Positions 3,595 through 46,389 of a stretch of DNA of 64,000 nucleotides are shown one piece after another. How positions within the stretch are numbered: position 1 is the first letter of the stretch; every line of letters starts with the position of its first letter. The stretch comes from Demequina phytophila (GTDB lineage Bacteria; Actinomycetota; Actinomycetes; Actinomycetales; Demequinaceae). The notes under the pieces are model-generated. The model searched no databases, was not told where the DNA came from, and was given only the letters and a program-made list of their open reading frames with translations. The DNA lies in assembly GCF_000971135.1 (NCBI RefSeq), contig NZ_BBLW01000001.1:310001-374000 (forward strand), given 5' to 3'. The position numbers and the translations under genes were made by a program.

Positions 3595-3610
3595 ATACCC
3601 CAGGGGGTAT
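3595..3610. promoter_or_regulatory. CsoR/CstR-like operator 3
   Basis: ATACCC-CAGG-GGGTAT, perfect in both arms and the same layout as the site at 1896. It lies in the 5' leader of the rhodanese lipoprotein gene. Confidence 0.6.
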
Positions 3611-3634
3611 CTGTGTCCGGCCCGCGGAGCCGGG

Positions 3635-3727
3635 TTCCACACACGATCCCGTCTCAGACCGGATTCACCTGCCCCTCACGTCGCATCGCCCGACCACCCC
3701 GGGCACAGTTGCAGATTCCGTGTGGAG
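3635..3727 (-). repeat. Miniature inverted-repeat element, intact copy A
   Basis: A roughly 93-bp noncoding element. On the minus strand it starts CTCCACACGGAATC and ends GGGATCGTGTGTGGAA, an imperfect terminal inverted repeat. Its interior (GGTCGGGCGATGCGACG and flanks) is closely matched by the two halves that flank the insertion sequence at 9.8-11.3 kb. It lies downstream of the dehydrogenase gene ending at 3841. Confidence 0.7.
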
Positions 3728-3760
3728 CGCGGTCGGCGAGCACGGGGCCCGCGGACGCGA

Positions 3761-9764: not shown

Positions 9765-9797
9765 CCAGTCTCCACACAGAATCTGCAACTGCGCCCG
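9765..9797 (+). repeat. Miniature element copy B, left fragment
   Basis: Begins CCAGTCTCCACACAGAATC and continues into CTGCAACTGCGCCCG, matching copy A (3635-3727, opposite strand) nearly base for base. The matching remainder resumes at about 11324 on the other side of the insertion sequence. Confidence 0.7.
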
Positions 9798-9811
9798 TGC
9801 CGCGGGCGATG

Positions 9812-10837
9812 TCAAGCTGCGTGGAGTCGCTCGGCCTCTGCTTCGGTGCTTGGCGTGGGCAGGTTGATGCCGACCAGTTTCGCGGGTTGGGCGGTGCGCG
9901 GGCGATCACGGAATCGTTCGGGGAAGGCGTCGTAGTAGGCGTCCTGGACGATGCTGCGCGCGACCCAGCGGGCATGCCAGCTGCCGTCGTGGACCTCATT
10001 CGGGGTGAACAGCCCGATCCCTGAATGCCGGTGAGTGCCGTTGTACCAGGGTGCATACCAGTCGACGTAGGCGCGGGCCGCGTCGATGTCCGCGAAGGTG
10101 CCGGGGAAGTTCGGCCGGTACTTCATCGTGCGGAACTCGGACTCCGAGAACGGGTTGTCGTTGGACACTCGCGGCCGGTTGTGAGTGCGTGTGATGCCGT
10201 GCTCGGTCAGGAAATCGCCCAGCAGGTTCGACCGCATCGCCGGGCCCGAGTCGGCGTGGACCGTGTGGGGTGCGCCGTGCTCGGCGATCGCGGTCGCGAA
10301 CATCTCGACGGCCAGGTGGTCGGCTTCGCGTTCCTCAACCCGCCAGCCCACGAGCTTGCGGGAGTAGATGTCGATGATCGAGTAGGCCTTGAAGGACTTG
10401 CCCCGCCACAGCGAGTGCAGGTCGGTGATGTCCCAGCTCCACACCTGGTTCGGGCCGGTCGCGTACACCACCGGCGCTTCACGCGACTGCCGTGCCGTGC
10501 GACGCGTGGGCGCGACCGGACGAGCGGACTTGTCTGCAATCTCCTTCGTGATGCGCCACCACGACCGCCTGGACGCGACCATCACACCGTCGTCCCACGC
10601 AGCCGCGAACGAGTGATCGACTGAATGGCCCTGTTCCCAGCCGGCCGTGACCTGGGCCTCGACGACCGCCCTCTGCTCGGCAGTGATGCGCGACGGATAG
10701 GCGCGCTCCTTGTGCGGCTTGGGGCTAGCGACCCGCGGTCGTGGCTTCGCCCGGTAGTGCCACGTCGACCGCGACAGCCCCACCACCGTCAGCGCCTTGC
10801 GGACCGACCCCAACGCGTCAGCAAGCTCCACGACCAA
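9812..10837 (-). CDS. IS3-family transposase OrfB (DDE integrase)
   Basis: The catalytic subunit, 341 residues from a TTG that is probably not an independent start. The DDE triad is visible: D in VWSWDITDL, D in VHADSGPAM, E in NPFSESEFRTMK with the K seven residues after E as in retroviral-type integrases. A C-terminal segment (WYAPWYNGTHRHSGIG) is typical of the family. The frame overlaps the end of orfA in -1, so the active product is expected to be the OrfAB fusion made by ribosomal frameshifting just upstream of 10852. All motifs are intact, so the element may be active. Confidence 0.9.
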   Translation of the reverse strand: MVVELADALGSVRKALTVVGLSRSTWHYRAKPRPRVASPKPHKERAYPSRITAEQRAVVEAQVTAGWEQGHSVDHSFAAAWDDGVMVASRRSWWRITKEIADKSARPVAPTRRTARQSREAPVVYATGPNQVWSWDITDLHSLWRGKSFKAYSIIDIYSRKLVGWRVEEREADHLAVEMFATAIAEHGAPHTVHADSGPAMRSNLLGDFLTEHGITRTHNRPRVSNDNPFSESEFRTMKYRPNFPGTFADIDAARAYVDWYAPWYNGTHRHSGIGLFTPNEVHDGSWHARWVARSIVQDAYYDAFPERFRDRPRTAQPAKLVGINLPTPSTEAEAERLHAA

Positions 10838-10851
10838 AGAGTTCTCCAGCG

Positions 10852-11271
10852 TCAGGAATCCGTCGGCTCTTCCGACGGCGTCGACGTCGGCGGGGTCGAC
10901 TCGTCGGGCTCGTGCTCGCTCATCGCGTGCAAGAGCCCGATAACTTTTCCCAACGCATCGTTCGCGGCCTCCAGCTCACGCACCCGCGCCCGCAGCCGCT
11001 CCGTCTCAGCGGCGTGATCCGCACGCTCCTTGGCACGCCGCTGCTCAAGCGCACGCCGCTCTCCTGGGGGAACCGTCATCCGGCTACCCTCTCGCGGAAT
11101 CAGGCCCCTGGCGATATCTCCCTCGTACACGGCCTCACGCCAGCGTCGCATCGTCCACGACGAGATCCCATGCTCCTGAAGCCAGGCCTCCTTCGACCCG
11201 TACGCCACCAACGCGTACTCGTACACCAACTCCCGGATCTCCTCAGCGGAGTACCCCACCGACACCGTCAC
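10852..11271 (-). CDS. IS3-family OrfA (helix-turn-helix and leucine zipper)
   Basis: 139 residues from a GTG. The N-terminal half carries a helix-turn-helix (LQEHGISSWTMRRWREAVYEG) that binds the element's ends. The C-terminal half is a Leu-rich heptad region (AAETERLRARVRELEAANDAL) for oligomerisation. The tail (STPPTSTPSEEPTDS) reaches the stop at 10852-10854. OrfB occupies the -1 frame, as in other IS3 elements. Confidence 0.88.
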   Translation of the reverse strand: MTVSVGYSAEEIRELVYEYALVAYGSKEAWLQEHGISSWTMRRWREAVYEGDIARGLIPREGSRMTVPPGERRALEQRRAKERADHAAETERLRARVRELEAANDALGKVIGLLHAMSEHEPDESTPPTSTPSEEPTDS

Positions 11272-11323
11272 CCTCTACCTCCTGATCGTGAACTGACTCA
11301 CGACCAGCCTGGCGGAGAGGGCC

Positions 11324-11389
11324 GGTCGGGCGATGCGACGCGAGTGGCATGCGAATCCGGCCTCAGCCGGGATTCTGTGTGGAGACTGG
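11324..11389 (+). repeat. Miniature element copy B, right fragment
   Basis: Runs GGTCGGGCGATGCGACG through to GATTCTGTGTGGAGACTGG. The first 17 bases are identical to the interior of copy A. The last 19 bases are the exact inverted complement of 9765-9783. Together with the left fragment it reconstructs one roughly 100-bp element split by the IS. It lies 12 bp from the end of the downstream aminotransferase gene. Confidence 0.7.
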
Positions 11390-32418: not shown

Positions 32419-32558
32419 GCCGTCCGGGCCTCCGTCCGCTGGCGCCTCTCCACACACTCCGAGCACCAGCCGCCCAGATCCGGGCATGCGGTGCGCTCAC
32501 ATCCGCCGCTCGTGTGGATGAGCGCCAGATCCGTGTGGATCAGCGATAGCGAGGGGTC

Positions 32559-33008
32559 TCAGACCTCCGCGCGGGCCTCGTCGAGGCCGTCGATGACGGT
32601 GTCGAGGATCGCACGCACCTGAGTGAGCTGGTCGTCGCCGAGCGCCTCGAGCTGACGGCGGCGCTGCACGCGCGCGTCGCCCACGACCTCGCCGGCGAGC
32701 TCGCGGCCCGACGGTGTGAGCGTGAGGCGACGGATGCGGCGGTCGATCGGGTCCTCGTGGCGCTCGAACAGCCCGCGCTGGACCATGCGCTGCACGATCC
32801 CGGTGGCGACCGACGGATGCACGCCGACGGCGTCGGCGAGGTCCGTGGTGGTGCAGCCGTCCTCGGCGTAGAGGATCACCAGCGCGCGGAACTGGTGGAG
32901 CGTGAGGCCCAGGCTCGACACCGTCTCAGGATTGCGGGGCGCCGACCGCCGCAAGAAGACCACCAGCGACTCCGTCGCCGCTTCTAAGAGTTCCTCGCGC
33001 TCAGCCAT
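32559..33008 (-). CDS. MarR-family transcriptional regulator
   Basis: 149 residues with the winged-helix core: LTLHQFRALVILYAEDGCTTTDLADAVGVHPSVATGIVQRMVQRGLFERHEDPIDRRIRRLTLTPSG. The DRR-R wing motif is intact. Start ATG at 33008; a TTG 15 bp upstream is an alternative. A TATAGT hexamer on the minus strand (33048-33053) is a likely -10. It lies 55 bp downstream of a second MarR gene to which it is clearly related in length and layout, suggesting local duplication. Confidence 0.88.
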   Translation of the reverse strand: MAEREELLEAATESLVVFLRRSAPRNPETVSSLGLTLHQFRALVILYAEDGCTTTDLADAVGVHPSVATGIVQRMVQRGLFERHEDPIDRRIRRLTLTPSGRELAGEVVGDARVQRRRQLEALGDDQLTQVRAILDTVIDGLDEARAEV

Positions 33009-46268: not shown

Positions 46269-46345
46269 GGACCCAGCCTAGGCCGCCCGCGGAGTTGCCA
46301 CCCGCCGAGGGATGTGACACCCTCGCGGCAGGGCCCCTCCGGCTC

Positions 46346-46389
46346 CCGGACGAAGTGACGTACCCGGCGACTCGACAAGACGTCTCACT
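46346..46389 (+). ncRNA. Guanidine-III (ykkC-III) riboswitch
   Basis: The core reads CCGGACGA, then an AGTGACGTACCCGG block, a short spacer, ACAAGACG and TCACT. This follows the known class III fold: CCGGACGA... GUACCCGG... ACAAGACG, with the two CCGG strands able to form the pseudoknot and AGTGA pairing with TCACT. The ribosome site GGAG begins at the next base (46390), so control is probably translational. The downstream gene encodes a Gdx-type exporter, exactly the expected partner. Confidence 0.85.

Follow-up and report, generated by a model that had tools for sequence, protein, structure and literature searches.

Fixed-length palindromes near gene ends in Demequina and their association with genes for AbiEi-Vsr-type proteins

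The locus examined here raises the question of which of two nested structures owns a repeat. Within the 64,000-nucleotide stretch of Demequina phytophila DNA that was analysed (the window), a 19-bp inverted repeat, CCAGTCTCCACACAGAATC ... GATTCTGTGTGGAGACTGG, encloses an insertion sequence (IS) at 9765-11389, and could represent either the ends of the IS or the target that it entered. An earlier note had argued for the target, pointing to an IS-free copy at 3635-3727 on the opposite strand, and our analysis bears this out, since the palindromic element is found at many places without the IS and the halves on either side of the IS rejoin to exactly 93 bp, the usual element length and that of the copy at 3635-3727, given an IS of 1519 bp with imperfect ends at 9803..11321 (minus strand) and a CCG duplication. 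The left 33 bp of this second alpha element (9770..9802, plus strand) end in the first CCG and are separated by the IS and the second CCG (11322-11324, 3 bp) from the right 60 bp (11325..11384, plus strand); CCAGT at 9765..9769 (plus strand), which forms the outer portion of the motif at the left end, has its inverted partner ACTGG at 11385-11389. The rejoined target matches the copy at C7:41431 at 81 of 91 positions. Judged by its sequence, the inserted element is of the IS3 family, with two reading frames on the minus strand, the first at 10852..11271 and the second, a predicted IS3 transposase, at 9812..10837. NF033516 is the best match for both (second frame E 1.7e-44, 152.6 bits; first frame 25.9 bits), each frame alone scoring below its curated cut-off of 160. 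Target duplications of 3-5 bp are typical of the IS3 family, and the CCG on both sides of the probable IS ends agrees with this. We infer its exact ends from the rejoined length together with two partial copies at contig ends: similarity to the 86% match L030 breaks off at GAGAGGG on the right, and the 74% match L045 begins at CGGGC on the left. These two partial copies were the only other IS copies that could be checked for the 19-bp repeat, and neither matches it. In the 10 plasmid records listed out of 32, IS3 relatives stop short of the IS ends. The locus is empty in G023 and carries elements in G024 and G014, that of G014 being, by reading, in the opposite orientation. The arrangement is best explained by an IS3 element that merely used one palindrome copy as a landing site; it resembles the REP-targeting IS elements described in PMC1525189, which also sit inside a repetitive palindrome, and with a single IS3 copy here we claim no preference. 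Relatives of the IS3 element also coincide with assembly breaks (G000 contig ends C12:553718-553828 and C8:259374-259466), and in five relatives (L124, L125, L126, L127 and L130) the gap orthologous to the IS locus is occupied by a different conserved hairpin, with the sequence GCTGCGAGGTGCTCAGTGC..GCACTGAGCACCTCNCAGC or a near variant of it.

The nature of the target itself was addressed through its other copies. The intact 93-bp alpha element at 3635..3727 (minus strand), with ends GACCNNNNCTCCACAC or similar, lies between two genes on the minus strand, and a pattern scan revealed a third window element, absent from the earlier note, that belongs to a beta/gamma family and occupies 32449..32539 (minus strand), with the stop codon of a predicted gene (32559-32921) 19 bp away. 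Two instances of the exact pair TCCACAC..GTGTGGA lie in the window (3636-3726 and 32449-32539), a count reached in 0/100 shuffles (mean 0.01), and the whole genome has 52, the reversed-pattern control giving 0. A BLAST search for further copies, as had been suggested, returned 28 matches in the same genome (query 3600-3760), the right half being variable and the length nearly always equal. The interior-free pattern, TCCACACN{62,92}GTGTGGA, allowed spans of 76-106 bp, and the 51 of 52 places whose sequence was examined spanned 90 (9 elements), 91 (23), 92 (17) or 93 bp (2); their interiors differ despite this near-constant span. Pairing extends beyond the heptamers for five positions (158/250 paired in 50 elements versus 126.9 in shuffled flanks, 0/2000 shuffles), and positions 6-12 and 13-20 of the same 50 elements show no excess over shuffled flanks. 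These properties are best explained if each element consists of a pair of inverted end motifs, each ~15 bp long and separated by a constant distance, and if the interval is filled with shorter modules that are either conserved or exchangeable; the start-to-start distance of ~84 bp would be close to eight turns of the helix. A tandem duplication contains two identical alpha elements at a distance of 172 bp (G000, C7:41431 and 41603), and a further sequence, GGGACGATGCG / CGCATCGTCC, recurs in many Demequina intergenic gaps both inside and outside the elements.

The elements have a marked location relative to genes, which were predicted with a codon-usage gene caller built for this analysis. Overlap with a gene never exceeds 15 bp among the 51 elements, a single one of which extends 15 bp into a gene end, and most lie no more than 50 bp from stop codons, in agreement with the proximity to gene 3' ends that had been noticed in the window. 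Their neighbours are convergent in 29 cases, tandem in 18 and divergent in 3, with 1 element at a contig edge, as compared with 13 tandem, 6 divergent and 1 convergent among window gaps of at least 100 bp.

Across the genus the design is wider than any one sequence. An exact 22-mer was found in four stretches, all from D. maris and D. silvatica, BLAST with 3600-3760 as query gave matches in 9/44 Demequina genomes, and the TCCACAC pattern had at least one place in 23/44, some single matches of which may be chance; copy number per species ranges from 0 to 52. An inverted-repeat scan of fetched loci and orthologous gaps identified relatives that carry a like design with different ends, among them TTCGCTCAGCACGG (G024), GGACACTGCGCACGGA (G018), TTGCTCCGCACGGA (G009) and GCGGCTCCGCCACAC (G042), and the pattern TCCGCACGGN{52,82}CCGTGCGGA matched in 15/44 genomes with 0 in every control. 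By reading, an inner CGACACGCC stands at a fixed place between variable spacers of fixed length in most of the elements listed, those of G032 and G037 departing from this layout.

A candidate for the protein partner of these elements emerged from their genomic neighbourhood. In D. phytophila, beta elements bracket the gene C7:34771-35634 and alpha elements bracket the gene C7:40480-41367; the protein of the former scores above all three Pfam cut-offs (AbiEi_4, REase_MTES_1575/DUF559), and that of the latter above the DUF559 cut-off only, the other two domains falling below theirs. A genus-wide search matched such proteins in 44/44 genomes. We scored bracketing as the best inverted match between the left and right 450-bp flanks, with a threshold of at least 14, for 83 full-length AbiEi-Vsr genes, drawn from 43 genomes (95 genes found, less two duplicates, L173 and L174, and ten weak matches; the broken gene of G022 and weaker search matches stood outside the gene set). 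Inverted matches were present in 47/83 genes, compared with 10/249 mismatched pairs whose flanks came from different genomes and 2/53 control genes, all from the window and hence from one genome (Fisher p 2e-11 against the control genes). In either orientation the figures are 56/83 versus 5/53 control genes, leaving 27/83 AbiEi-Vsr genes with no match of at least 14, and the best-scoring band reaches 20/21; at least one gene is bracketed in 39/43 genomes, and the matched flank sequences vary from gene to gene. At the ftsH-gene-hpt locus an element was read in 13/13 genomes examined and the gene in 12/13, the thirteenth, G014, having lost the gene and retaining an element with unpaired ends. 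By inspection, 14 aligned proteins fall into two sequence types that match the end types CCACAC/CCACGC and GCACGG/CAACGG; D208, D220 and H225 (numbered by the first aligned protein) are invariant. The association of the palindromes with AbiEi-Vsr genes is well supported. Copy number shows only a weak relation to whether a gene carries the exact motif on either flank alike (TCCACAC, 2 versus 42 genomes, p 0.007; CCGCACGG, 4 versus 40 genomes, p 0.024), and several many-copy genomes have no analysed gene with the exact motif on both sides, both for TCCACAC (G018 with 49 places, G024 with 20, G023 with 13, G014 with 11) and for CCGCACGG (G018 with 18, G028 with 10, G026 with 8, G037 with 8). By reading, a further DUF559-type gene, between valS and clpX in D. 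phytophila, is flanked to left and right by GGGGAACT-type repeats. Nine of the ten weak matches, more distant DUF559-type genes (L249-L257), were assessed with wider windows and without a control of their own, and 7/9 had an inverted match of at least 14, L249 scoring 46; the tenth, L165, was read by eye.

The protein is predicted to combine an AbiEi-like, DNA-binding winged-helix half with a half that resembles Vsr and homing endonucleases. In a structural model (pLDDT 89), residues 1-173 match the AbiEi chain 6y8q_A (Z 9.5, rmsd 4.2, 168 aligned), and residues 175-274 match 3hrl (Z 11.4, rmsd 2.3, 88 aligned), the homing endonuclease I-Bth0305I 3r3p_A (Z 11.0, rmsd 3.0, 93 aligned) and Vsr 1cw0_A (Z 9.8, rmsd 2.5, 97 aligned), with TnsA 1f1z_A aligning to the nuclease half at Z 6.4 (rmsd 2.3, 84 aligned); Foldseek matches at E <= 0.001 were two AbiEi chains only. 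PMC3710099 places MTES_1575 among the Vsr-family REases. The modelled N-terminal part matches the fold of the AbiEi antitoxin of the AbiE type IV toxin-antitoxin system, which binds inverted repeats cooperatively according to PMC7319586, and the protein differs from that antitoxin by an extra C-terminal Vsr-type domain. The nuclease fold appears to be that of I-Bth0305I and TnsA, from which the present nuclease differs in being linked to dispersed palindromes. Plasmids searched with one nuclease protein gave no match at 1e-12, viral contigs contained 12 relatives, all of them partial and most related to the nuclease half, and NCBIfam gave no name for the four AbiEi-Vsr/DUF559 proteins tested.

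Joint change of the two ends was seen at one locus, and it bears on a protein-based as well as on an RNA-based explanation. The C1 alignment took six of 13 elements (G024, G008, G009, G018, G035 and G006, with GCACGG or AACGG ends), excluding elements of the CCACAC/CCACGC types as well as that of G014, and it is gap-free over 97 columns. Of its 15 end pairs, 10 have changed on both sides, 4 are invariant, 1 departs by an unpaired cell only and 0 have changed on one side only. No shuffle of 500 reached 10 jointly changed pairs, a result inflated because the six rows are a selection out of 13 and share ancestry. Since the element centre is alike in 5/6 of them (G008 being the exception, at 27-38% identity), five C1 elements look orthologous, with ends that appear to have changed jointly. 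If the elements acted as bidirectional terminators or structured RNA, with end pairing as the selected property, joint change of both ends, their strong predicted folding and their gene-end location would all be accounted for. Against such a reading count the same end sequence recurring at many loci, the inner module, which shows no compensating change in the six C1 elements, and the 0/90 end cells with a one-sided G-U step. Folding energy shows no strand bias either, the long-arm-first strand being lower in 17/28 alpha and 7/19 beta/gamma elements (4/51 not orientable), and this, together with the lack of any Rfam match at the gathering score for the window copies, rules against an RNA family, so that we regard an RNA function as very unlikely. 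Elsewhere in the window, at 46328-46389, a Guanidine-III riboswitch scores above its Rfam gathering score.

Close species differ in which of the elements they carry. Eight elements of D. phytophila could be aligned to fetched syntenic stretches of G023: four have no counterpart there (net 128, 133, 168 and 133 bp), one is conserved, and a different element or other sequence is found at three sites. At C12:429297 an identical 25-bp stretch lies on either side of the element and occurs once, slightly different, in G023; it is the sole clear target duplication, the three other empty sites showing no clear one. Orthologous copies are retained in G015 and, at C7:5070, in G023. The earlier note had called the palindrome a miniature inverted-repeat element, a term that suits the inverted ends and many copies and sits poorly with a fixed length around exchangeable interiors, with linked AbiEi-Vsr genes and with end sequences that vary between species and between two families of one genome. 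Ordinary MITE families, mobilized by a standard transposase that is absent or has escaped recognition, with the nuclease genes as passengers or as sharing insertion hot spots, would account for those ends and copies, for the insertion differences and for the 25-bp duplication. They would leave the fixed length and unrelated interiors unexplained, the parent transposon for which a search had been suggested did not appear as any long copy with these ends among the BLAST matches, and the bracketing statistics weaken any version without a linked gene; we consider this explanation improbable.

These observations lead us to favour, by a modest measure, a system like the REP/RAYT 'REPtron' in which an AbiEi-Vsr protein stands in place of the Y1 transposase and its nuclease would drive movement. 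Within such a system the AbiEi part would bind both end motifs, and the nuclease half could nick or cut DNA and thereby let copies enter gaps close to gene ends, in the manner proposed for RAYT and REPs; a role of the protein in binding, cutting or spreading the elements is inferred from the bracketing, the joint change and the domain make-up. To our knowledge, the Y1 transposase is the single kind of enzyme with which protein-linked REP repeats have been associated. Dispersed palindromes outside genes, a repeat-bordered protein gene (here 47/83 inverted and 56/83 in either orientation, for another protein family) and protein groups that match repeat groups are shared with the REP/RAYT (TnpA-REP) systems as described in PMC8266576. 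The present system differs in using an AbiEi-Vsr protein rather than a HuH Y1 enzyme, and in its ~15-bp end motifs at a fixed 84-bp spacing within elements of ~93 bp, REPs being 20-40 bp according to PMC3733652. RAYT itself was rejected as a candidate, there being no Y1 protein: the Y1 HuH transposase (PF01797) was detected at E <= 0.001 in 0/44 genomes and in 5/14 control genomes.

Those copies that lie upstream of the gene might simply be operators, and this idea may be extended to the whole family, such that the protein is a regulator, the elements are its dispersed binding sites, maintained for some role in the host, for instance to insulate or terminate convergent transcription or to organise the chromosome, and the nuclease has a by-role. 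A spacing of ~8 helix turns fits a bound complex, and the spacers of fixed length and free sequence, AbiEi binding to inverted repeats, the position near stop codons and the orthologous copies kept in other species agree with it. The strong differences in copy number between species and the variable presence among close relatives fit this poorly, and the spread of the elements would be left without an explanation, so that we hold it rather unlikely. Returning to the REPtron-like reading, we put forward more tentatively that it represents a second, independently evolved class, in which vertically inherited AbiEi-wHTH/Vsr-type nucleases would spread fixed-length bipartite palindromes near gene ends while their DNA specificity drifts in step with the end sequences at dozens of sites in each genome, amounting to rapid protein-site coevolution in bacteria. 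If true, such a parallel system would suggest a role for the AbiEi_4 and DUF559/MTES_1575 domain pair, and its gene-site pairs, with their numerous naturally occurring specificities, would allow study of how a DNA-binding protein changes together with dozens of sites. The open part of PubMed Central yielded no paper on the palindrome, which had been thought undescribed, no description of its link to AbiEi-Vsr genes and no functional paper on the domain pair. The BIME and IHF-binding RIP elements of E. coli are likewise intergenic, ~100 bp long and composed of two inverted parts around a centre, a likeness by layout alone from which we claim no relation. A more elaborate arrangement was seen in G018 (L112, 7638-7856), where four CTCCACAC units 21 bp apart, hairpins and then inverted GTGTGGA units 21 bp apart follow one another between convergent genes.
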